A stretch of 43,688 nt of DNA, taken from positions 1-43,688 of IMG/VR virus record IMGVR_UViG_3300045146_000080; one strand, given 5' to 3'. A program made the translations under genes and the position numbers. This document shows, one piece after another, positions 3,158-40,820 of the stretch. The DNA comes from a virus. Below the pieces are notes generated by a model, which was not told the origin of the DNA, ran no database searches, and saw only the letters and a program-made list of their open reading frames with translations. Every line of letters begins with the position of its first letter. The stretch's first letter is position 1.

Positions 3158-3257
3158 TGTGCAAAAAAGTTCTTGCTTTTCCCTTCTATTATTTATATAT
3201 TACCGTTGGCCTATAAAACATCCCCTCGGCCCCCTGATTGTACAATTAGAGGATGCT

Positions 3258-3791
3258 ATGGAAGCCAGTGTTGATGTTGTTGATAGGATAGATAATAGAC
3301 GCAATCCAGACGGCAATCAGAACTACGACGTTACTCGTATTTGGGAAAACCATAACGAGATTATACGACTGCTCGTAGCCGGTGTCTCCCCAACCGCCAT
3401 CGCTAGATCGTTGAACATAACAACTCAAACCGTTTCAAATGTTAGGAATAGTCCGCTAGCACAACAGCGCATCGCCGAGTTGTCAGCGCAGCGAGATGCC
3501 GAGGCCGTTGATATTGCTAAACGTGTGGCCGAGATTGCGCCGTTGGCAGTAGATGTTTTGAAAAAGCATTTGATAGATGCCCTCGAGAATGATGAGGATG
3601 ATAAGGATAAGGCTAGGATAGGAACCACAGCCGCGCTGGGCCTTCTCGACCACGCCGTTCCTAAAAAGGTAGAGGGCAGGGTGATGCACGGCCATATCAC
3701 GCTAGATAGAATAAACGAGATAAAACAAAAAGCACTAGTCAGTATGCAACAGGTTGTAGTTGTTGAGGAGACTAGCGATGAAAGTAAGTGA
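3258..3791 (+). CDS. terminase small subunit (putative)
   Basis: The small terminase subunit recognises phage DNA and hands it to the large subunit for packaging. The ATG at 3258 follows AGAGGATGCT; a frame open from further upstream lacks a ribosome site. Residues about 30-60 carry a helix-turn-helix (IIRLLVAGVSPTAIARSLNI, then TTQTVSNVRNS), and the rest is helical and charged, ending in an acidic tail. Length 177 residues fits small terminases. It is the first gene of the rightward arm, although the large subunit is 6.5 kb downstream, which is an unusual separation. It could instead be a different HTH regulator. It overlaps the endolysin start. Confidence 0.6.
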   Translation: MEASVDVVDRIDNRRNPDGNQNYDVTRIWENHNEIIRLLVAGVSPTAIARSLNITTQTVSNVRNSPLAQQRIAELSAQRDAEAVDIAKRVAEIAPLAVDVLKKHLIDALENDEDDKDKARIGTTAALGLLDHAVPKKVEGRVMHGHITLDRINEIKQKALVSMQQVVVVEETSDESK

Positions 3792-4143
3792 GCATTTCGA
3801 CGACGGCGAGTTTCGCTGCCCCTGCTGTTCCTCTGTTAAAATAGACAGTGAGTTGATAAGTCGTCTAGAGATTGCTAGGAAACTAGCCGATATACCATTC
3901 GCTATAAACTCCGGTTATAGATGTCAAACGTTCAACGATTCGTTGGAAAACAGTGTTCCGACGTCTAGTCATATAACCGGCAAAGCCGTAGATATAGTTG
4001 CCAATGCTGGTGCTACTAGATATAATATCGTAAAATCGTTGATACTAGCCGGATTCAAGCGTATTGGTATAGGTGCGTCGTTCATACATGCAGATGTTGA
4101 TACAGACAAACCGCAGTTCACAATGTGGACATACTACGAATAG
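3778..4143 (+). CDS. endolysin, M15-type peptidase
   Basis: The protein is a small peptidase of the M15 (VanY / phage T5 Lys-like) group, which cuts peptide bridges in peptidoglycan. The characteristic zinc-site patterns are visible: SGYRCQTFNDSL at about residues 45-57, SSHITGKAVDIVA at about 65-77 (His and Asp ligands), and a late FIHADVDTD at about 100-108 (His ligand). Length 121 residues is typical of the bare catalytic domain. The ATG at 3778 follows GAGGAGACTAGCG and overlaps the end of the preceding gene. It has no signal peptide, so a holin or membrane partner is expected, and the next three genes supply candidates. Confidence 0.85.
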   Translation: MKVSEHFDDGEFRCPCCSSVKIDSELISRLEIARKLADIPFAINSGYRCQTFNDSLENSVPTSSHITGKAVDIVANAGATRYNIVKSLILAGFKRIGIGASFIHADVDTDKPQFTMWTYYE

Positions 4144-4152
4144 GAGACAGCT

Positions 4153-4662
4153 ATGAAGCCGTGGATGTACGTACTCTGTGTGATATTATCAATAGCGTTG
4201 ATAGCATCCTGTGTATTATATTGGGTGCATCCAAGGGTTGTTATTCGAGAAGTTCCCGCCTCTATCCCCGATAGTCTACTTGTCCATTTCAAACCAGCCA
4301 AACCAGATACTGTCTATAAAGTAGTCCTCCGAACAATAGAACGAGAAGGGAAGAAGGACACTGTTTTTGTTCCCATCGAGGCTGTTTATCCTGATACCAT
4401 GCCGATGATAGACGTTGTCGAGAAAACATTCCGCAAAACACTAACCGGTGTGGCGGTAGAGTCGTTTGTTAAAACATATTCCTTCGGCGAGGTATTTGAT
4501 ATTGAAAACAACATAAAGGCAACAATAGATAAAAAGTGGGTTGCCGACGAGATAAATAAGGTCGTCACCATAGAAGTATCGAAGGCGAAGAGAAAAGGAA
4601 TATATATCGGCGCTGGTGCTGCTATAGTTGTCGGAGCTGGTTTGTGCTTGCTGTCGAGATAG
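4153..4662 (+). CDS. membrane protein of the lysis cassette, 169 aa
   Basis: An N-terminal hydrophobic segment (residues 4-24, MYVLCVILSIALIASCVLYW) is followed by a long soluble middle with many Lys, Glu and Val, then a second hydrophobic stretch near the C-terminus (about 150-167, GAGAAIVVGAGLCLL). The ATG follows GGAGACAGCT. It lies between the endolysin and two further small membrane proteins. A spanin-like or holin-like role fits the context, but the hydrophobic C-terminus is unlike a typical i-spanin. I cannot choose between these. Confidence 0.6.
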   Translation: MKPWMYVLCVILSIALIASCVLYWVHPRVVIREVPASIPDSLLVHFKPAKPDTVYKVVLRTIEREGKKDTVFVPIEAVYPDTMPMIDVVEKTFRKTLTGVAVESFVKTYSFGEVFDIENNIKATIDKKWVADEINKVVTIEVSKAKRKGIYIGAGAAIVVGAGLCLLSR

Positions 4663-4672
4663 GGAGGTTGAT

Positions 4673-5050
4673 GTGGGAAACGGATCTGGTATTCCCCTTA
4701 AAAATATCGCTGTAGATGAAAATAAGGGGATTGTGTTTGTTCCAACGCTGCGGTCGTGGATAGCATTAATTCTATCGGTAATAGGTTTGATTGGTGCAAT
4801 TGCAGCTATTGGCCGTAGTTATTACATGGTGTGTGACAGAGCGGGAAAAGTTCCTGGACTTGAGAGAAAAGTTAAGAGAATAGAAGTAGAAATAGCGGTT
4901 GATCGTGAAGGTAACTGGGCCCTGTCGAAGGAGATAATGCGAAAGCTAGACCCCGACGGGGCAGAGAGTAGGATAACACAGATAGAGGCTATGAAACAGG
5001 CAATGCTCAATACGTTAGAAGAGCAGGAAAAACAAAACGGAGGAAACTAA
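4673..5050 (+). CDS. membrane-anchored coiled-coil protein, 125 aa (lysis cassette)
   Basis: I choose the GTG at 4673 because GGGAGG lies five bases upstream, and it lies only ten bases after the previous stop. Residues about 30-50 form one membrane segment (WIALILSVIGLIGAIAAIG). The following part is charged and helical (KVKRIEVEIAVDREGNWALS, then EQEKQNGG), consistent with a coiled coil. One membrane helix with a coiled-coil tail is the plan of an inner-membrane spanin, so this is the best i-spanin candidate here. No matching outer-membrane lipoprotein is seen in the lysis cassette itself. Confidence 0.6.
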   Translation: MGNGSGIPLKNIAVDENKGIVFVPTLRSWIALILSVIGLIGAIAAIGRSYYMVCDRAGKVPGLERKVKRIEVEIAVDREGNWALSKEIMRKLDPDGAESRITQIEAMKQAMLNTLEEQEKQNGGN

Positions 5051-5767: not shown

Positions 5768-7540
5768 ATGAAAAAACTACTCCTATCCCTATTAATAGTA
5801 TCAACAGCGACAGCCCAGATTGGTGTCAGACCGGGTGGTTTCATACGTAGATCTAGCACAGCGGCCTCTGCCAACCAAATAGCATATTGGGTTAATAGTC
5901 ATAAAATAGGTGGCATCACTGCTGGCAATAGTAGTATACTCGTCACCAATGGTAGTGGTGTGCCTAGCTGGGCTACCGATATACCGACTGCTGTTACTAT
6001 AGGAAGTGCTTATGTATATAGAGTTGGTGGAACGGATGTAGCTGTTGCGGATGGTGGAACTGGGAAATCCAGTTGGACTGTTGGTGATATTGCCTATGCC
6101 AGTGGTGCAACAACGCTGGCTGGATTGGCCGACGTAGCTGTTGGACAGGTGTTAATAAGCGGCGGAGCGTCTACCGCTCCATCCTGGTCTGCCTCGCCAT
6201 ATATAACTGGACAACTTGGTGTTGGTCTATCTGCTCTTGGTGGTGCTATCCACGTATATCGTGGAGCGTATGGGATAAATACTAGCGGTATAGTATTTGA
6301 CGCAGATGGTAACAGCGGATGGGTAGGTGGTGGTGATAATCAAGTAGATCTATATCTCAGCGGTTCTACATACTACAGAGCCGGAACAACAGGATTTTAT
6401 GTTAATAGAGGCGGAAGTTCTGGTGCGGCTTTATACTATGCTACATCAAGTCTATATACACCATCGTTGCTTCCCTATTTTGGAGACACAAACACAGGCA
6501 TCGGTGGGGACGGTTCTGATAGGATTTCACTTGTATCTGGAAGCGAGCCAAATCTAATAGTTACCACGAGTGGAGTAAATGTTTTAGATGCGTCTAGTGT
6601 TGGAAGTGAGTGTTTATCAAATGGTGCGCTTACTTCTGGAACAGGCTGGACTGTCACTGGTGATTTTGCGCTTGCATCTGACGCCGCAACATATACGCAT
6701 TCATTTGGAACTGGGACATTAAACCAAGCATCTGGCACAATGACGATAGCCGGACTTTCCAGTAGATTATATAGACTACAGTATACAACATCGAGTGTTA
6801 CTGGAACAGTCACTATGACCATCACGACATCATTTGCATCTGAGTCGTGGCCTATTTCAACATCCGCCGGTACATACTATGTCTATTTTAAAAGTGCTGT
6901 TGCCCCAGGCAGCTTTACCATATCAATTACAACATCTGCAACGGCAACGCTTACGATAGATGCACTATCGTTGAAAGAAGTTAATGATGGAGATATTCTT
7001 CTCCCAGGAGACATTGTAGCATACAATGGTGCTACCTTAGCAAATCCTGGCGCGACGATGGTTACTACTAATTCTGTAAGTGGTATGAATAAAACAGTCG
7101 TCACCTTTGCATCGTACTCTTTAACAATAACAGACGCAGCCGCAGCTGGAGCACACGGGTCTGTAAAACTTATAGACTTTCCAGAGGGACACATTAAACT
7201 GCTTGGTGGACATCAAAAACTAACATTCACCGAAACCGGAAGTGAGATAGACGCAGATGCAGTGTTCGATGCCGGTATTGGTTCTGCTGCTGTTGGTGTA
7301 GATAATGAAAAGTTAACAGGAACCGAGTGTGAAATAACTGGGGCAGAGGAGGCTGCGTTAGTAGCAAGTACATTGACATTCGATACGATAAATAGCACAG
7401 ATCAGACACTTGACGGTTCTGCTTCTGCAAGTGATGCATATTTAAACGTTGCGATAGCCGCAGCCGATTGTTCTGGCAATTCAACTTTGACTGTCACTGG
7501 AACAGCGACAATTTGCTGGATCTTGCTTGGTGACGATTAA
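5768..7540 (+). CDS. exported fibre-like protein, 590 aa
   Basis: The ATG at 5768 follows GGAGAATAGTGCT. The protein starts with a signal peptide (MKKLLLSLLIVSTATA, then QIGVRPGG). The mature part has tail-fibre traits: Gly/Ser/Thr-rich low-complexity strands and a DGGTGKSSWTVGDIAYASG segment at about residues 100-120, a pattern common in phage fibres. It is followed by repeated short beta segments and a C-terminal stretch with many Thr and Ala. No catalytic motif is visible. A virion fibre with a Sec signal is unusual. The gene overlaps nothing and is closely followed by another exported protein, so the pair may act at the host surface. Confidence 0.65.
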   Translation: MKKLLLSLLIVSTATAQIGVRPGGFIRRSSTAASANQIAYWVNSHKIGGITAGNSSILVTNGSGVPSWATDIPTAVTIGSAYVYRVGGTDVAVADGGTGKSSWTVGDIAYASGATTLAGLADVAVGQVLISGGASTAPSWSASPYITGQLGVGLSALGGAIHVYRGAYGINTSGIVFDADGNSGWVGGGDNQVDLYLSGSTYYRAGTTGFYVNRGGSSGAALYYATSSLYTPSLLPYFGDTNTGIGGDGSDRISLVSGSEPNLIVTTSGVNVLDASSVGSECLSNGALTSGTGWTVTGDFALASDAATYTHSFGTGTLNQASGTMTIAGLSSRLYRLQYTTSSVTGTVTMTITTSFASESWPISTSAGTYYVYFKSAVAPGSFTISITTSATATLTIDALSLKEVNDGDILLPGDIVAYNGATLANPGATMVTTNSVSGMNKTVVTFASYSLTITDAAAAGAHGSVKLIDFPEGHIKLLGGHQKLTFTETGSEIDADAVFDAGIGSAAVGVDNEKLTGTECEITGAEEAALVASTLTFDTINSTDQTLDGSASASDAYLNVAIAAADCSGNSTLTVTGTATICWILLGDD

Positions 7541-7554
7541 TATTTGAGGTTTAT

Positions 7555-9567
7555 ATGAAAAATAAACTGCTTCTTCTTTTTTTGTTGCCTGTGCTGTGTA
7601 TGGCGACTGGTTATAGAGTAACAATACCAAAAGTACAAACTATTAATCCTTGGGTAGATCTACGGGCGTTCTTACCGGCTGGAACGTCTGGACCAGGAAC
7701 GGCGTATTCCGACAGTACGGCAATAGCCAACGCCCTTGCGTATATATCAGATGGAGATATATTATATATACCAGATGGTAGATGGAATTTTAGTACAATA
7801 GATTCATCCACTGCGGTTATAACAAAAAATATTAGGGTTGTTGGAAATGGAAATGGTTCTACTATATATATGAGTACTGGCCCTGACGTAACAACAACAA
7901 TAAAGGTGAGGGATTGTGATAACGTATCCTTTGAAAATCTTAGATTCGTAGGCTGCTATAAAACTCTTACTTTTCAGGCCACTCTAAGCGACACGATGGA
8001 TAATGTTACGTTTAGAGATGTGACATTTGATAGTATACACCATTCCTGTGTTTCTATGGTTTCTGCGTCTAGGGCTTATTATATACGAAACCTTAAAATA
8101 TCTGGCTGTACTGTTATAAATAGTGCCTGTGGTTTTATGTTCGACTGTAATATATTGAATGGTCTTGTTTTTGGAAATACAGTTAGACATCTGCAAGAAG
8201 ATTCAAACGCAATGTACGGCTTCCTTCTAGGACGCGGTGATTATTATACGTCTAGTTCAATGTTGGTAACCTGCAATGTTATAGATGGTATCGAGGCAAC
8301 AGCCGACAACAATCAGGAGGTTCATGGTATATTAGTGAATGGTGTGCAGGCTGAGATATCTAATAATATAATCAGAAATATAATTCACGTAGATACTACT
8401 GGTCACTCTGAGGGGATATACGCAAAGGGAAATAGGATCAATATTTGTAACAACGTATTGTATAATGGAGGTATGTCTGAGGCTAGTATAATTATCAAGG
8501 GTACTACCAACGCATATCAGAGTTCAATAGAAAACAATATTGTTATAAAGGACGATGAGCCGCATGGAGCGTCTATAAAAGCACTATCTGACGTGCGAAT
8601 AGCAAACAACTATATTGTGTCTACAGCAACAGGTCTATATCAATACGATTGCATTGGAATATACACACAGGTTCAGACAACAAAAACTGTTGTTGAAAAC
8701 AATCATGTAGAGACTACAGGAATAGGTATTCGTGCTGGGGCAATATCTTCTGGAATCGGAGAGTTGATTATCCGCGGTAACTATATAAAAACCAAGAATC
8801 ACTGTGTGAAAACGGATGTTGGTAGTAATCCTAGTAGGATATTTATAGTAGATAATCCAATGATAGATTCTGATTCTCTATCTGCGCTGAATTTGTTACT
8901 TCCTGGAAATAATACCGTCATAAAGAATAATTTCTTTGACATGGATCTTCTATATACAACAGGCGTATATGGTATATATCTAGGCGATTGTGGCAACGTA
9001 GATTTTTCCAATAATATAGTTGATATAGACTCGTGCGGGACATCTCCATATTTAATAACCTTTTATCGTCCAGATGTGCTTAACTTTGATAATAATACTA
9101 TATACTACGCCGGTGTTGCTAGTAGGGTAATTTATGTTAAACAATCTGGTACTACGGTTGACTATATTGGATTCGGAAATAATAGATTTGTGATTGAGTC
9201 TGATTTGGTATCTATACCAACAAATATTATCTATGTTGAAGATTCAGTTACAACTGTCGATTTTTATGATAACGTGTTTACTAACTTATCCGCAGATACT
9301 GTACTGAATCCAGTATATTTCCACGACTGTTTTGGTGTGGGTGTATTTGATGGAAATAAGTTTGGCCGACGATTTAATTATGGTATGGTTTTTAATCACT
9401 TTGGAAATTTTATAGACACACTTGTGGTCATAGGAAATACTTTTATGGGTATAACTGGTGGTGGAATGTTGGCTAGTGCTAGTGGAGATACTACCTACTC
9501 TGACATACATGGAATATGTAAATGGGACACTACTATGGGCAACGTTGGTTTTACTAATGGTTATTGA
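7555..9567 (+). CDS. exported beta-helix protein, tailspike- or depolymerase-like, 670 aa
   Basis: A signal peptide (MKNKLLLLFLLPVLCMATG) precedes a right-handed parallel beta-helix. The fold is suggested by regularly spaced short units such as NVSFENLRFVGC, NVTFRDVTFDS, NISGCTVIN-like turns, NNHVETTGIGIRAG and VDFSNNIVDID, running through most of the chain. The N-terminal part (TAYSDSTAIANALAYISDGD, then ILYIPDGRWNF) is the usual cap of pectate-lyase-type tailspikes. Such proteins often bind or cleave polysaccharides. I see no clear catalytic pair, so the activity is unknown. The signal peptide is the odd feature, as tailspikes normally assemble in the cytoplasm. Confidence 0.7.
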   Translation: MKNKLLLLFLLPVLCMATGYRVTIPKVQTINPWVDLRAFLPAGTSGPGTAYSDSTAIANALAYISDGDILYIPDGRWNFSTIDSSTAVITKNIRVVGNGNGSTIYMSTGPDVTTTIKVRDCDNVSFENLRFVGCYKTLTFQATLSDTMDNVTFRDVTFDSIHHSCVSMVSASRAYYIRNLKISGCTVINSACGFMFDCNILNGLVFGNTVRHLQEDSNAMYGFLLGRGDYYTSSSMLVTCNVIDGIEATADNNQEVHGILVNGVQAEISNNIIRNIIHVDTTGHSEGIYAKGNRINICNNVLYNGGMSEASIIIKGTTNAYQSSIENNIVIKDDEPHGASIKALSDVRIANNYIVSTATGLYQYDCIGIYTQVQTTKTVVENNHVETTGIGIRAGAISSGIGELIIRGNYIKTKNHCVKTDVGSNPSRIFIVDNPMIDSDSLSALNLLLPGNNTVIKNNFFDMDLLYTTGVYGIYLGDCGNVDFSNNIVDIDSCGTSPYLITFYRPDVLNFDNNTIYYAGVASRVIYVKQSGTTVDYIGFGNNRFVIESDLVSIPTNIIYVEDSVTTVDFYDNVFTNLSADTVLNPVYFHDCFGVGVFDGNKFGRRFNYGMVFNHFGNFIDTLVVIGNTFMGITGGGMLASASGDTTYSDIHGICKWDTTMGNVGFTNGY

Positions 9568-31304: not shown

Positions 31305-31488
31305 AGTGCCTCCGAAGTTGACCGGTTGCTCTATTGTCTCTTGTTATTTTTATATATAATCTTCTGCGTTTTATTCTAAAACGGAATTTGTGTACTAATG
31401 AACAATCGCAGCACGCTATTTTGTGATCTTCGTTTAGTGTATATCGCTCCTCTGTTCCATCCTCTACTATCTCATATTTGCTTTTCAT
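31282..31488 (-). CDS. small basic Cys-rich protein, 68 aa
   Basis: The ATG overlaps the polymerase stop (CTATGA), and its end overlaps the start of the DUF3987-like gene by 23 bases. The chain MKSKYEIVEDGTEERYTLNE continues with HKIACCDCSLVHKFRFRIKR and ends basic with RHCGRKVSR. A CxxC pair and a late H-x-C suggest zinc binding. Its place between polymerase and ATPase, by overlapping starts and stops, argues for cotranslation. I do not recognise it. Confidence 0.6.
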   Translation of the reverse strand: MKSKYEIVEDGTEERYTLNEDHKIACCDCSLVHKFRFRIKRRRLYIKITRDNRATGQLRRHCGRKVSR

Positions 31489-33956
31489 AGAGCCTCGAGG
31501 AATTTTGTTAGGCCGTCTATTGTTCCAACCTCCTGCATATCTTTCATATTTGTCAAACCAACAGATATAGACGCCGGTATTGTGAATGATCTCTGTCTCC
31601 ACACTAGTGGCTGTTCCAACGATGCTACTATGTTTTTGACTGCTTCTATGTGCGCCGTTAGTGGAACCGACCTCGGTATCTGGAACACAATACTATCGTG
31701 GACTTGGTTCAGCAGCTCTACGTGCTGAAACTTATCTTGGTTGTAGTATATATAGATCAAACCACGTCTATTTATGATGTCGGCCACTGTTGACTGTGGT
31801 GTGTAGGAATATGCTTCCTTGAATAACTCCTCCCCCCACTGTGCCATGAACATTCTCTTTCTGCCGAGCAAGTTAGTCAATGTTCTATTTCTACGCAGTT
31901 CCTCCTGTATCCAGTTCCACATAACCTGCACCCCTGGATATGCTGTATGATAGGCCATGCGAACTGTTTTGCCTATATTTTCTGGTATCTCTAGATCGTA
32001 CGCAAACTTTCTATAACCAAGACCGTAGTTGAATGCGTGATTGCTACGTTTTCCCCAGAACCGCTCGGTGTGGCCGCAGATAGTTGGATCAACGCAAAAT
32101 GGGCAACTGCCGTCTTTGTTACTAACTTTATCCACCGGCTTGTTTAGTATCAAACCGGCTGTCTGTTTGTGTACGTCTGCGCCGCTTTCAAACGCTTCTA
32201 TCATTTTGTGTTCTGGTGCTATATATGCAACTATTCTATTCTCCGCCTGGCTGAGGTCTATATTATATCCTATATACCCTTCGTCAAACAACATATGCTT
32301 TTTAAACTCCGGCGGATCGTTTTGTAGATTCATCCCCGTTTCCCAGATCGTCGTAGATGATGATAGTCGACCACTATCAGCAGCGCCGACAGGATTATAG
32401 CTACAGCGTAGGCGGTGATCGCTGTCGAGGGTGACGTCGAGATAGGTCGATTTAAGTTTTGACAGCTTACGACACTCAAGCAGAATGGAAGCTTCACTAG
32501 AGCCAGAACGAGACAGACGTTTGAGAGCATCCTCATCGCTCGTCCTTTTTCCCGTTGTTCTCTTCTTATACTCTTTATAGCCTTTTTCATCGTAGAGATA
32601 CTCCATAACTTGTCTGCTACTATTCCAATTAACTTCCTTCCCCGCTATCGTATTCAACATTTTTGTTAACTCTTTCACACGAGCATCTGCTTTCTCCGAC
32701 TCCCTCTTCAAACCATCAACATCTACTCGTATACCCCGCTCGCTCATGTATATCAACGGCTCTATTAATATCTTCTGATGGTTGTATGTATCTATGTTAT
32801 CTTTTATTTCTAGGTCTTTTATCAATCTAGGAAACGCTATCGAGCAAACGATACTATCCTTCGCGTTGTATTCCCAAAAACTTGTCTCGTCTCCGCCTAT
32901 CTTTATATACTTTTTCCCTTCGTCTTTATAGTAGGGTATTTCTGTATATATACTATTTATAAAATCCAATCCCTTTGGAAAGTCAGGAACGAGTATAGCT
33001 TGCGCTATCATGGTATCTTCTATATGCTTGACTACTATACCATACTTGCGGAATAGAAATTGACTGTCGAAGATAGCATTCTGTCCTATCTTCTTTATAT
33101 TGCTATCCTCTAGTATATCTGCGATTAACTTCCATACTAGGGCCTCGTCCTCTATATTGAAATATTCCCTACCGTGCGATATAAATGGTATTGATATGGC
33201 TATGTATTCTTCGTCCACACGAGTACAAAAACTAATACAACTAACTTCTAGATTGACAACCTCTATGTCAAACGCAACTGGATTGCCACTTGCCTTTATT
33301 GCCCCTAGAAAAAATGTTGTATCTTGTAGGGTTGGGGCTGTTATTATTTTGTGATCTGGCTGACGTAGTTCCCTATACTCCGACTCTCGTTTTGCCCTAT
33401 GCAAATCGTGGAGGATATAGTATCGCCATAGATACATACCACCTTCCCTACCTTGGTGAATACAGGCAGCGGGGTGGATGGATGCTAGTACCTTCCTCTT
33501 CGAGGGTAGTAAACTTTCGTAGATAGAACCGCGGCGTTTCGTTATACTTGGTGGATATATGCCGGTCAATGCGTATAGAGGAACGTTGCCAAACGCAATT
33601 ATTATATTAACGTCGGTTGCCTCTAGTTCGTCGTATAACTGTTGTTTATAGTGTAGATACTCGGGAGTTTCGTGTACTGGCTTTTTATCTAGATCTATAA
33701 AAGTAGATATATCATTTGTCTTTTTGCTGGTGGTTGGTGGCTGCTCTTTTATGACGTTTGTTATATAACAATCTGTGCGAATTATTCTTGCACTTGCCAA
33801 TAGCTGATTCAACAATGATCCGGCTGGGCCGACAAACGGCCTACCCTCCTTATTCTCCATAGCTCCTGGCGCTTCACCAACTATGGCTATCTTCGCCGAG
33901 GCTGGACCTTCTGGCCCGATTATCCTACGCAACGGGGGCTGTTGCTGGAACAACAT
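31485..33956 (-). CDS. fusion of uracil-DNA-glycosylase-like, exonuclease and family A DNA polymerase domains
   Basis: Three domains in order. Residues 22-180 look like a family 4 UDG: GEAPGAMEN (27-35) and the HP motif at 161-162 after VLASI; the usual Fe-S cysteine pair at the N-terminus is absent. Residues about 205-385 form a DEDD exonuclease: D230/E232 (AFDIEV), N293/D297 (GQNAIFD), Y363/D367 (YNAKD). Residues about 400-823 are polymerase A: D567 (DLSQAENR), R632/K636/Y644/G645 (motif B), H753/D754 (QVHDS). H640 occupies the place of Phe762 of E. coli Pol I. A CPFC-x5-CGH insert (618-629) sits before motif B. The start follows AGGAGCCTACA. Confidence 0.88.
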   Translation of the reverse strand: MLFQQQPPLRRIIGPEGPASAKIAIVGEAPGAMENKEGRPFVGPAGSLLNQLLASARIIRTDCYITNVIKEQPPTTSKKTNDISTFIDLDKKPVHETPEYLHYKQQLYDELEATDVNIIIAFGNVPLYALTGIYPPSITKRRGSIYESLLPSKRKVLASIHPAACIHQGREGGMYLWRYYILHDLHRAKRESEYRELRQPDHKIITAPTLQDTTFFLGAIKASGNPVAFDIEVVNLEVSCISFCTRVDEEYIAISIPFISHGREYFNIEDEALVWKLIADILEDSNIKKIGQNAIFDSQFLFRKYGIVVKHIEDTMIAQAILVPDFPKGLDFINSIYTEIPYYKDEGKKYIKIGGDETSFWEYNAKDSIVCSIAFPRLIKDLEIKDNIDTYNHQKILIEPLIYMSERGIRVDVDGLKRESEKADARVKELTKMLNTIAGKEVNWNSSRQVMEYLYDEKGYKEYKKRTTGKRTSDEDALKRLSRSGSSEASILLECRKLSKLKSTYLDVTLDSDHRLRCSYNPVGAADSGRLSSSTTIWETGMNLQNDPPEFKKHMLFDEGYIGYNIDLSQAENRIVAYIAPEHKMIEAFESGADVHKQTAGLILNKPVDKVSNKDGSCPFCVDPTICGHTERFWGKRSNHAFNYGLGYRKFAYDLEIPENIGKTVRMAYHTAYPGVQVMWNWIQEELRRNRTLTNLLGRKRMFMAQWGEELFKEAYSYTPQSTVADIINRRGLIYIYYNQDKFQHVELLNQVHDSIVFQIPRSVPLTAHIEAVKNIVASLEQPLVWRQRSFTIPASISVGLTNMKDMQEVGTIDGLTKFLEAL

Positions 33957-33963
33957 TGTAGGC

Positions 33964-33986
33964 TCCTGTTTAAAAATTAAACACGT
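33964..33986 (-). promoter_or_regulatory. palindromic element 8 of 9
   Basis: On the minus strand: TAGACGTGTTTAA, TTT, TTAAACAGGA. It points toward the polymerase gene, and its AGGAG overlaps that gene's ribosome site. The TAA stop of the methyltransferase fusion lies inside the element. Confidence 0.85.
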
Positions 33987-35359
33987 CTATACGATGAATA
34001 GTTAGGTGGCAGGTTTGCATTGACTCGGAGTGTGAACTTATCCTTTATGTCTTTATTCATCTCAAAACCGAATGCCGTGCAGTGTACGTTGTATGCAGCC
34101 AATATACCATTGCCGCTGCCGAGGAATGGTATTAGTATTCTGCTACCCGGCTTCACAAATGCATCATAGATAGCACACATCAACTCAACTGGTTTTTCTG
34201 TTATGTGTATTCTGCTTTCTGGGGCGACGGTTCGAAACGAGAATATATCGTGGGTTCCCTCTTTTGCCAATCGAGCAGATGGTTTTCGCATGTAGTAAAA
34301 TAGTTCGTAGCATCTAACGAGGTTGGTCTCTGCAGCCCTCACCTGCCCCGTTGGTTTCACCCACACGCAGGGAGTACCTGGGCCTTTCAACTTATACTTT
34401 TCACACAGTTTCCAAATCTCATTCCCGAGTGGATGATAGGCAAACCATAGCACTATCCAGCCCGTCTCCGATAATATTCGAACGCACTCTCCTAGAACTT
34501 TGTCTAGATACTCTAGATAGTCCCCCTCTGCTTTTGTATATCCGTCTACTTTCATTTTGTGCAGCGCCTCGTGTTCCACCGGCCTGGACTCTAGATCAAT
34601 AGCCCCCCAATCAGGGTCGAGTTCTATCAAATCCATACTATTATCTGGCACATCCTTTATCTTCTCAAAGAAGTCTCCTATTATATAGGAGTTCATTATC
34701 TGTTTGTGCAGTATTTTATCCGGCGTATCTGCACGTTCTTTTTCTACTGCCTTTGCTAGCTCCTTAGCCTCGTATGTTTTTTTCAATGTTTTCAACATCT
34801 TCATAGCCTCGGCCTTTGTGCCGGCTTCGGCTAGTTCTGGTATTACTTCTATTGCCTCTGCCAGTTCGATATCGAGTGATACGGTGGCTGCTGACTTGCC
34901 AAGCATCTTTGCCGTATCTCTCATACTATGCCCCTCTGATTGAGGAGCACTCCCCTTCGGGCCGTGTATTTCCTGCATGATTTTATGTATTCTATTTGTC
35001 AATGCTACCTGCTCGGCGTATTCCATATCCTTTCTATCTATATTCTCAAACAACTCTATTGCCCTGCTCTCCAACTCCGTTAGATCGGATGGATATATGC
35101 TGGCCTTCACCTCCGACCAACCTAGTTGCCGACATGCCTCGAGACGACGGCCTCCGGCTAGTAGTTGATATGGCTGCGCTGTGTCACCTGACTCCTTTAC
35201 AACAATAGGATGCCATAGGCCGTTGGTCTGTATGCTTTGCTTCAAACTTTCTATATCACCTAGATCTGTTCGATAACGATAACCCTTCAACAGTTCTAGG
35301 ATGGCTATTGTTTTCACTTCCTTTGGTTTTATCGCCCTCGCCGCCGGTCTCTCCTCCAC
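33977..35359 (-). CDS. ParB-like nuclease domain fused to a DNA methyltransferase
   Basis: I take the GTG at 35359, because GAGGAGG lies just upstream and the previous gene ends at 35362; an ATG at 35422 would give 21 more residues. Numbers follow the 460-residue form. Residues 10-112 are ParB-like: AGGRRLEACRQLGW with GGRR at 69-72, and ENIDRKDM at 105-112. A helix-turn-helix follows near 150-169. The methyltransferase part has DPDW at 248-251 where DPPY or DPPW is normal, then FLGSG at 412-416, the SAM-binding motif I after the catalytic motif (beta order). ParB-methyltransferase fusions are known in phages; the altered catalytic motif is unusual. Confidence 0.75.
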   Translation of the reverse strand: MEERPAARAIKPKEVKTIAILELLKGYRYRTDLGDIESLKQSIQTNGLWHPIVVKESGDTAQPYQLLAGGRRLEACRQLGWSEVKASIYPSDLTELESRAIELFENIDRKDMEYAEQVALTNRIHKIMQEIHGPKGSAPQSEGHSMRDTAKMLGKSAATVSLDIELAEAIEVIPELAEAGTKAEAMKMLKTLKKTYEAKELAKAVEKERADTPDKILHKQIMNSYIIGDFFEKIKDVPDNSMDLIELDPDWGAIDLESRPVEHEALHKMKVDGYTKAEGDYLEYLDKVLGECVRILSETGWIVLWFAYHPLGNEIWKLCEKYKLKGPGTPCVWVKPTGQVRAAETNLVRCYELFYYMRKPSARLAKEGTHDIFSFRTVAPESRIHITEKPVELMCAIYDAFVKPGSRILIPFLGSGNGILAAYNVHCTAFGFEMNKDIKDKFTLRVNANLPPNYSSYRRV

Positions 35360-35361
35360 AA

Positions 35362-35625
35362 CTACCTCCTCTTTGTTTTTACAAATCTGCACTTTGCAGG
35401 GATGACCTTTTCTTCTGTGCATTGGTATTCCATGTTGAGATCTCTGACTAGCGTTCCTAGCCTATCCCGAATAAGTTTAATCTCCTTCCATACTTCTTTA
35501 GAAACGTTATTCATTCTCTCATCTTCTGCAGCTATACTACGGGTCAGAGATCCCACCCGTTCAATCAGAAGCTCTACGTCTTGCTCGAGCCTGCGCAATC
35601 TCTTAAAAACGCTTATCATATTCAT
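35362..35625 (-). CDS. coiled-coil protein, 87 aa
   Basis: The frame opens with a TTG at 35661, but the likely start is the ATG at 35625 after GAAGAGGAGAAT, or the next one at 35619. The chain MNMISVFKRLRRLEQDVELL continues with heptad-like helices (LIERVGSLTRSIAAEDERMN and KEIKLIRDRLGTLVRDLN). It is likely a coiled coil. It lies two bases before the methyltransferase start and belongs to that operon. Function unknown. Confidence 0.55.
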   Translation of the reverse strand: MNMISVFKRLRRLEQDVELLIERVGSLTRSIAAEDERMNNVSKEVWKEIKLIRDRLGTLVRDLNMEYQCTEEKVIPAKCRFVKTKRR

Positions 35626-38802: not shown

Positions 38803-39026
38803 ACGCCCTCCTCTAGCTTTTTCATCAGGAACAATAGTTCAGCCTCTCCCATCCCATCTGCCGATAGCAGTTTGTCCATAGCGTTGACCTGCTTCTTCTC
38901 TTTTTTCACCGCCTCTTTCACTGCTCGTTTGGATGTTATCCTACTGAGTCGTATAGCTCTATGTACCGCTATAGCCTCATTGTTGTCCATTTGTAGGATG
39001 CTTTTCTTTATTTCTCTTAACTCCAT
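38799..39026 (-). CDS. small helical protein, 75 aa
   Basis: The ATG follows GAGGTCATAA. The chain MELREIKKSILQMDNNEAIA is followed by Lys-rich helices (KRAVKEAVKKEKKQVNAMDK). It looks like a short helical protein with a basic centre. It overlaps the preceding gene by 50 bases in another frame and has its own ribosome site. Not recognised. Confidence 0.5.
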   Translation of the reverse strand: MELREIKKSILQMDNNEAIAVHRAIRLSRITSKRAVKEAVKKEKKQVNAMDKLLSADGMGEAELLFLMKKLEEGV

Positions 39027-39243
39027 TTATGACCTCGAATTTTGCTAACACTGTTTTCGTTATGATAGCGTCTATGACTAACTCTGGATTCTTTTCTATT
39101 GCATCTAGCAGCCAATCCAAAACATAGGACATCACCGGTTTCCTCATACCCCACGGTATCAACTTATTCAACCGTATCTCCTGCTCGGTAGATATTTCTA
39201 CGTTAAGACGAGGAACTGTTCTTTCTATCTTTCTATCCTTCAT
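38977..39243 (-). CDS. ribbon-helix-helix-like DNA-binding protein, 88 aa
   Basis: The ATG follows TAGGAGATAACT. The region RLNVEISTEQEIRLNKLIPW followed by VMSYVLDWLLDAIEKNPELV has the strand-helix-helix order of ribbon-helix-helix repressors such as Arc and CopG. Such proteins bind palindromes as dimers, which makes this one a possible ligand for the nine palindromic elements. That link is inference. The 3' end overlaps the next gene by 50 bases. Confidence 0.55.
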   Translation of the reverse strand: MKDRKIERTVPRLNVEISTEQEIRLNKLIPWGMRKPVMSYVLDWLLDAIEKNPELVIDAIITKTVLAKFEVINGVKRNKEKHPTNGQQ

Positions 39244-39275: not shown

Positions 39276-39324
39276 TGGAGCGCAGGTGGGATTCGAACCC
39301 ACCTATGCTACCAAAGCTGCGCTC
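39276..39324 (-). ncRNA. tRNA-like element without anticodon arm
   Basis: On the minus strand GAGCGCAG and CTGCGCTC form an eight-base stem. Between them AGCTTTGGTAGC resembles a shortened D arm with the GG of the D loop, and GGTGGGTTCGAATCCCACC has a canonical T loop TTCGAAT on a five- or six-pair stem. No anticodon arm or variable loop is present. It lies between the genes at 39333 and 39243, about 30 bases before a ribosome site. A degenerate tRNA gene or a regulatory RNA are possible. Confidence 0.65.
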
Positions 39325-39332
39325 TTTCTATG

Positions 39333-39749
39333 TTACGCCTTCGGAATCACGAAACGTTTGATGTTGTTCTGCTCTCCGTAGTCATCACTCTCGTTGGTTG
39401 TGAGGATTGCGAATGCCTCACTCCCGTTGAGGGATTTCTGATCCTTGTCCACCATGTCGGCGAGCTGCTGTGCATTTTTGAATCGCAGTTTGAACGCATC
39501 CCTGAACGTGCGGATTCTGCGCAGTTTGCCGTTGGATTCGTCCTTACTATCGCTGTCTGTTGGGAACGATAACCACGTCGACAGTGGCTTCACATTTTCC
39601 TGGTCAACCACCCTGAACCTGATCTGGATGCCAGGCTTCTGATTTTTGTCGAGCTTCCCCTCTGCTCCTGTTATGGCTATCCTATGTTCTCCATCGGTAG
39701 CCACGCCGAGTTCCGGTACTCCATCGAGTTCGAAGTCGAGAATACCCAT
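39333..39749 (-). CDS. possible single-stranded DNA-binding protein, DUF669-like, 138 aa
   Basis: The ATG follows AAGGAGTAACAAG. The chain has beta-rich segments (GEHRIAITGAEGKLDKNQKP, then GIQIRFRVVDQENVKPLSTW) and a C-terminal NESDDYGEQNNIKRFVIPKA. DUF669-like phage proteins in recombination modules have this composition and length and are thought to bind ssDNA. The place beside the RecA-fold ATPase supports this. Not verified. Confidence 0.5.
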   Translation of the reverse strand: MGILDFELDGVPELGVATDGEHRIAITGAEGKLDKNQKPGIQIRFRVVDQENVKPLSTWLSFPTDSDSKDESNGKLRRIRTFRDAFKLRFKNAQQLADMVDKDQKSLNGSEAFAILTTNESDDYGEQNNIKRFVIPKA

Positions 39750-40037: not shown

Positions 40038-40820
40038 TTATGATCTATCTTCCGCCGGCAGTCCCGCCTTTTCGAGTAGCTTTTTTATGTTCGGCTCCTC
40101 CTGTGGCAGGAATATGCCGCTGCCTATTCTTGTTCTGGCTATATACTTCCCTGTCGGTCTTGTTAATAGCTTGACGTGGATGCCGTCTGACTTTTCCTCA
40201 TTTATCAATACGTATATCTCGTCAAATAGAATGGGAATGTTTATCTGCATACTCGGTATGCTAGCAAAACGAGCTATCATCTTCCCCTCTACTTCCTCCG
40301 GTTCTAGCGTTAGATGACCGGTTAATATGAAGTCGCAGGATAGGGCACAGCACTGTTTCATGTGGGATATAAAGGCATTGCCAATAGCTCCCCACTCTGG
40401 CTGGCTGACGTTGTCTCGTCCACTCTTTTTCATTGCATACTCTGCCATGCTCCTCAAAAACGTGGATGCGCTGTCTATACAATAGGTTCCAAACTTGTCG
40501 AAGAACTTTTCCCTCACCCTATTATTGAACTCCTTCTCCCATTCCGAGAAGGGAAACTCCTTCGACTTCGACCAGCGCATATCCGGCACTATTCTCCCCG
40601 CTTCTATGAGAGGTTTGAAATCTCTCAGCTTCGGCCCGCCTGGATCGAAACTATCTATCAACACGGGCATCCTCGCTGTTTTCAACAGCGTTGTTTTTCC
40701 TACGCCGAGTTGACCGAGAACGATAGCGTTGAACTTGTGTTGCGCGCTATCCTCTGCGTACATTTTCAATAACTTTTCTATTCCTGGGTCTACTGTCAAT
40801 GGTTGTTTCTGTTCTGCCAT
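40038..40820 (-). CDS. RecA-fold ATPase, Sak4-like recombinase, 260 aa
   Basis: Walker A is GQLGVGKTT (36-44) and Walker B ends at D116 in YCIDSAS. The later ILTGHL fits the sensor strand of phage AAA_24-type ATPases. Length and order match Sak4-type single-strand annealing proteins, which pair ssDNA. A RecB-like nuclease and a possible ssDNA-binding protein lie nearby, as in other Sak4 modules. A general P-loop packaging or nucleotide-binding protein is the alternative. The start follows TAAGGAGAAATAAG. Confidence 0.7.
   Translation of the reverse strand: MAEQKQPLTVDPGIEKLLKMYAEDSAQHKFNAIVLGQLGVGKTTLLKTARMPVLIDSFDPGGPKLRDFKPLIEAGRIVPDMRWSKSKEFPFSEWEKEFNNRVREKFFDKFGTYCIDSASTFLRSMAEYAMKKSGRDNVSQPEWGAIGNAFISHMKQCCALSCDFILTGHLTLEPEEVEGKMIARFASIPSMQINIPILFDEIYVLINEEKSDGIHVKLLTRPTGKYIARTRIGSGIFLPQEEPNIKKLLEKAGLPAEDRS

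Follow-up and report, generated by a model that had tools for sequence, protein, structure and literature searches.

The stretch of DNA that we analysed (here called the window) is a virus record of 43,688 bases whose early genes lie on the minus strand. Upstream of a putative single-stranded DNA-binding (SSB) protein gene (39333–39749, minus strand) are a PD-(D/E)XK nuclease and a Sak4-like ATPase (40038–40820, minus strand), the latter a conserved neighbor within the same operon; downstream is a gene for a small protein (38977–39243, minus strand) that recurs after the SSB-like gene in related phages. Between the SSB-like gene and the small gene, 8 nt past the stop codon of the first and about 35 nt ahead of the start codon of the second, is a tRNA-like element that has no anticodon arm. 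The element had originally been placed in the leader of the downstream gene, but it could equally be called the 3′ untranslated region of the gene before it. Elsewhere in the window, 31485–33956 and 33977–35422 (both minus strand) hold a uracil-DNA glycosylase domain fused to an exonuclease and a family A DNA polymerase, and, beside it, an N6/N4 DNA methylase in fusion with a ParB-like domain.

Which of the two flanking genes encodes the DNA-binding protein? The original prediction pointed downstream, to a gene (38977–39243) for which our searches matched no family. The upstream gene has no Pfam match of its own; its homologues match DUF669, a weak match links it to PHROG 378 (“single strand DNA binding protein”), and the structure predicted for its product (pLDDT 90.8) finds its best solved match in PrgE of plasmid pCF10 (E 3e-6), a protein whose structure has been solved also with DNA bound. 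Judging from that model, the upstream product is probably an OB-fold ssDNA-binding protein, and this assignment is better supported than the one made for the downstream gene.

The element itself (39278–39324, minus strand, as are all of its parts) is 47 nt long with paired ends and, read as RNA from 39324 to 39278, runs 5′-GAGCGCAG CUUUGGUAGCAUAG GUGGG UUCGAAU CCCAC CUGCGCUC-3′. Its acceptor stem is 8 bp, formed by GAGCGCAG (39317–39324) and CTGCGCTC (39278–39285); the T arm, GTGGG-TTCGAAT-CCCAC (39302–39286), is perfect, and its stem can be extended to 6–7 bp. Only 14 nt (CTTTGGTAGCATAG, 39303–39316) separate the acceptor from the T stem, and there is no room made there for an anticodon arm or a variable loop. 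What remains of a D arm is a stunted hairpin of three pairs, GCU-UUGGU-AGC, which has the D-loop GG in its UUGGU loop, shares one base with the acceptor and, together with the linker AUAG, occupies 39303–39317. The eight-base stem, the shortened D arm, the T arm and the missing parts are thus all as first described. The acceptor and T stems make a helix of 13 bp (8 + 5, as against 7 + 5) in which all 13 pairs are intact. No NCCA end is directly encoded 3′ of the element; the sequence found there is CAACCA.

The predicted fold has an energy of −24.0 kcal/mol, compared with −13.9 ± 2.6 for shuffled sequences (z −3.8), and the tRNA-like form is the minimum-energy fold, but the nearest-neighbor ensemble gives the acceptor pairs a probability of no more than about 0.33, their rival being a local extension of the T hairpin, which on its own is the most certain part of the prediction. 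A descriptor consisting of a tRNA T arm, an acceptor of at least 7 bp and an insert of 8–35 nt matched three places in 1.96 Mb of related phages, the window element among them, and none in five Markov shuffles. The structure in the window exceeds chance, and the observation of an anticodon-less tRNA-like element is confirmed.

How should such an object be classified? It has one hallmark of a tRNA, an acceptor stacked on a T arm with a TTCRANY loop (8 bp and 5 bp, TTCGAAT), and not another, the anticodon arm with its 7-nt loop. ARAGORN calls no tRNA at the element, even with introns allowed, and an Rfam search of the window gives nothing at threshold there. The tRNA model RF00005, with which the element shares the acceptor stem, the T arm and the GG of the D-like loop but not the anticodon arm or variable loop, scores 14.9 bits against a cut-off of 29 bits. 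The best family below threshold is mascRNA-menRNA, RF01684 (24 bits, E 0.006, cut-off 42.5 bits), which covers the tRNA-like structures at the 3′ ends of MALAT1 and MEN-beta. These are likewise nondecoding and likewise consist of an acceptor, a T stem-loop, a small D stem-loop and a D/T elbow; unlike our element, mascRNA has a stem equivalent to the anticodon stem, and it belongs to an animal long noncoding RNA rather than to a phage operon. The tRNA-like domain of tmRNA likewise has the upper half of a tRNA and lacks an anticodon arm, but the element is a contiguous 47 nt with neither a tag-coding part nor pseudoknots; RF00023 aligns its T arm only (11.5 bits, model positions 347–363), with no full-length match, ARAGORN finds no tmRNA at the element, and we dropped that reading. 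A Y-RNA reading was checked and dropped as well. Compared as DNA with phage records, the element matches mainly tRNA T arms. A covariance model that we built from six anticodon-less elements of unrelated phages, none from the clade of the window, has this element as its sole match in the window (26.9 bits, with a rough E of 1.2e-7).

The pairing is conserved. Across the 18 elements that we aligned, 99.5% of the pairs in the 12-bp acceptor/T helix hold, 10 of the 12 show compensatory changes, and the covariation score is 0.968, against 0.229 ± 0.031 when shuffled; the signal is lost when the register is slid. Some of the 5′ strands in the 18 aligned cores were picked by complementarity, which biases these figures, although most were fixed independently by the adjoining D arm.

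Relatives of the window were gathered by alignment of its DNA polymerase (PolA), which gave 80 + 80 loci and, with the window, 110 nonredundant phages; searches with the SSB-like and Sak4 proteins singly had found no relatives. Among them, the order Sak4, SSB-like gene, boundary, small gene is widely conserved. Their 1.96 Mb contain 30 T arms of the tRNA type, of which 28 are on the sense strand and almost all are between open reading frames, the next start often coming 40–80 nt past the T loop. One-half of them (15 of 30) fall no more than 345 nt after the stop codon of the SSB-like gene, where about 0.3 would be expected; that is, they mark 15 of 99 such boundaries. The structures to which they belong range from a complete tRNA-Met (in the phage that we call L277) through long forms with bodies of about 83–165 nt to the short, anticodon-less design seen in the window and in L158. 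The sister of the window in the PolA tree, L127, has a longer tRNA-like structure at the same boundary. L158, in which the element reads GGAGCAT-CCGATGGTTCGGC-GGGGGTTCGATTCCCCT-A-ATGCTCC with a UGGU D-like loop, is far from the window in that tree, which means that the short form either had two or more origins or spread by transfer. These two are the only short forms at the SSB boundary in the clade; a third, in L270, lies between other early genes, and two further candidates (L142 and L201) were rejected, their 6-bp acceptors not being significant. T arms are patchily present over the PolA tree, which therefore speaks of frequent gain and loss. In L192 (about 4480–4715) and L277 (7115–7312), two tRNA-like structures stand in tandem at the SSB boundary, and L143 (about 7690–7760) and L146 (about 7230–7270) have in common, near theirs, the motif CTGCTGAGAGGCT within larger structures.

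What do the remaining phages have in this place? Most have a plain hairpin. The boundaries after the SSB gene are structured in general (mean −25.4 kcal/mol, against −16.2 for random 90-mers), and stems of at least 9 bp occur at 58% of them compared with 11% of random 90-mers. Where a T arm is present, another hairpin of at least 8 bp is found at only 4 of 15 boundaries, compared with 52 of the 84 boundaries that have no T arm (p 0.02, by a test that ignores relatedness), and terminator-like sites are found at 0 of 15 and 17 of 84, respectively. Boundaries with a tRNA-like structure thus tend to exclude plain hairpins. Seven of the tRNA-like elements start just 3–16 nt past the stop codon.

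It could be said that the element is itself nothing other than such a hairpin, stabilizing or attenuating an mRNA 3′ end, and that its tRNA look is incidental. The plain hairpins of most relatives and the certainty of the T hairpin within the predicted fold speak for this. We nevertheless consider it very unlikely, given that the exact TTCGAAT loop, the D-loop GG and an 8-bp acceptor occur together, that an independent covariance model matches and that no run of U residues follows. An intrinsic terminator was considered and dropped: a GC hairpin with a U-run is not what we find, no terminator-like site is present at the element on the minus strand, and the sequence that comes next is CAACCAACUAG.

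Short forms also occur outside the clade. A loose D-loop/T-arm pattern run over viral contigs was discarded, as it returned mostly ordinary tRNAs in which the anticodon stem or variable region fitted the pattern. A stricter one, for tRNAs with D and T arms no more than 20 nt apart, matched 8 loci among 2.9 million viral contigs, 6 of them with an intact acceptor (five distinct elements). Cellular genomes (257 Gb) yielded 15 loci, and the sole intact acceptor without Ns among these belongs to a prophage of Streptococcus porci. There, the anticodon-less element (L411, about 3815–3878) lies just upstream of the terminase genes. In Streptococcus phage Javan565, a tRNA-like gene that is fuller, similar at its ends and not annotated stands between terL and portal (L284, about 7162–7225). 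Among cultured phages, Polaribacter phage Danklef_1 has an element of 58 nt without an anticodon arm, annotated “tRNA-OTHER” (NC_062745.1, 43546–43603; L424, 1247–1304), directly after a strong hairpin. Like our element, it has an acceptor, a D arm and a T arm without an anticodon arm and is intergenic in a row of phage genes; it differs in its length, in its full 4-bp D arm, in its score of 50 bits (which passes the Rfam tRNA cut-off) and in the genes around it. Searches of the open-access literature turned up no account of tRNA-like elements that lack the anticodon arm within phage operons.

Could the element then be a tRNA gene in decay, that is, a phage tRNA once inserted after the SSB gene that has had its anticodon arm deleted and now does nothing? 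In favor of this, relatives do have fuller genes here (the complete tRNA-Met at the boundary in L277, a tRNA-Tyr-like gene with GTA in L268), and the anticodon-less form of the Streptococcus prophage has as its counterpart, in a related prophage, a fuller tRNA-like gene with similar ends. A complete tRNA gene at this place in relatives, or homologues without conserved pairing, had been named at the outset as evidence against the element; the first turned up in L277, but the pairing is conserved in the reduced forms. Simple decay, one of the roles suggested originally, fits poorly because the pairing is compensatory across lineages and because the same reduction is seen at the boundary in distant L158, with the acceptor, T arm and D-loop GG spared in both. 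All 13 helix pairs of the window element are intact, and over the 257 Gb of cellular sequence the pattern searched has an intact acceptor free of Ns in a single prophage only, which also counts against decay. We regard a functionless remnant as unlikely. The tRNA-Met of L277 does support a tRNA origin for the element.

We propose instead, with a probability of roughly 0.55, that the element is a tRNA-derived RNA that acts in cis as punctuation in an early polycistronic transcript, with host RNase P cutting at its 5′ end. Structure, recurrence at one boundary, covariation, sense-strand intergenic placement and the tendency to exclude plain hairpins are observations; the cut, the nucleases that make it and its consequence for the two genes are what we infer. 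The upper half of a tRNA (acceptor, T arm and remnant D hairpin), embedded directly after the SSB-gene stop codon, would be read by host RNase P through its acceptor/T helix and D/T elbow; the cut would create the 3′ end of the upstream mRNA, and RNase Z or an exonuclease may trim the 3′ side of the element, freeing the downstream mRNA. The element would in this way stand in for the plain hairpin or terminator found at the boundary in most relatives. A helix of about 12 bp (here, 13 bp) and the elbow bases TTCGAAT and GG are what one looks for in an RNase P substrate, which is suggestive only; the missing hairpin or terminator and the start 3–16 nt after the stop codon are the look that would be expected of a cis element making an mRNA end. 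Several observations speak against the proposal: the low probability of the acceptor pairs, the lack of a directly encoded NCCA end, the 8 + 5 rather than 7 + 5 bp of the helix, the presence of just two short forms at the boundary in the clade, and the patchiness of T arms over the tree. Of the roles first offered (RNase P cleavage, translation control and decay), processing of the RNase P type is the best fit. Nothing specific supports translation control, since the AGGAG of the next gene comes only well downstream of the end of the element.

There are precedents. T4 gene 32 encodes an ssDNA-binding protein, as the gene upstream of our element probably does. Host RNase P is reported to cleave phage RNAs that are not tRNAs, among them M3 RNA, the C4 antisense RNA of P1/P7 and T4 gene 32 mRNA, and RNase P is reported to cleave polycistronic mRNAs as well (PMC11143913); the likeness drawn here is one of RNase P cleavage, which for the window element is putative. 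In mascRNA and menRNA, processing by RNase P and Z depends on the elbow (PMC11693755), and these RNAs show that mimicry of the elbow is enough, with no decoding.

Two further explanations are to be set beside cis punctuation. The element might be released as a small RNA that acts in trans by mimicking a tRNA or serving as a decoy, for example for a tRNA nuclease of the host or for some other elbow-binding protein. Phage defense often targets tRNAs, to which phages respond by carrying tRNAs of their own; a fold this compact could persist as a small RNA, and anticodon-less tRNAs are present in other phages. However, a trans-acting RNA would not need to be tied to one gene boundary, alternating there with plain hairpins, and we identified no defense partner; we think it quite unlikely. 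The 3′ end of a tRNA is often part of a phage attachment site, and the element could be such a fragment left for an integrase. This we dropped as scarcely credible: the 43,688-base record has no PF00589 match (no tyrosine integrase), and the 5′ acceptor strand and D hairpin, superfluous in an attachment site, are present too.

If cis punctuation is correct, phages use tRNA processing to separate genes as mitochondria do, with tRNAs that cannot decode; the mRNA for an ssDNA-binding protein would be linked to RNase P, as has been reported for T4 gene 32; and these elements would provide, ready-made in nature, minimal substrates of RNase P with which to ask what smallest part of a tRNA suffices for the enzyme in vivo. 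Since the cultured Danklef_1 carries a comparable element, the idea is open to testing. The gene finder that we used misses most such elements: ARAGORN calls a tRNA at only three of the 30 T arms. More tentatively, and at somewhat less than even odds, we suggest that dsDNA phages repeatedly strip tRNA genes to nondecoding upper halves (in other lineages, the lower half is swollen by inserts of 60–180 nt) and use them as interchangeable RNase P punctuation that splits early operons, above all after the SSB gene.

Expanded tRNA-Leu-like RNAs were also seen in viral contigs: at least 121, of which 103 have an acceptor of at least 7 bp, with a normal acceptor, a Leu-type D arm, a T arm and 60–180 nt between, some having a hairpin in the D loop. 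Examples are L182 (289–394), L227 (about 6480–6700) and L235 (about 3220–3440), with others including L289–L408; ARAGORN calls none, and the Rfam tRNA model gives several about 29–41 bits. Finally, in L283 (1356–2052, minus strand), a tRNA-like element without an anticodon arm is the neighbor of a tRNA and of a tmRNA, the latter matching the alpha and the permuted tmRNA models alike.
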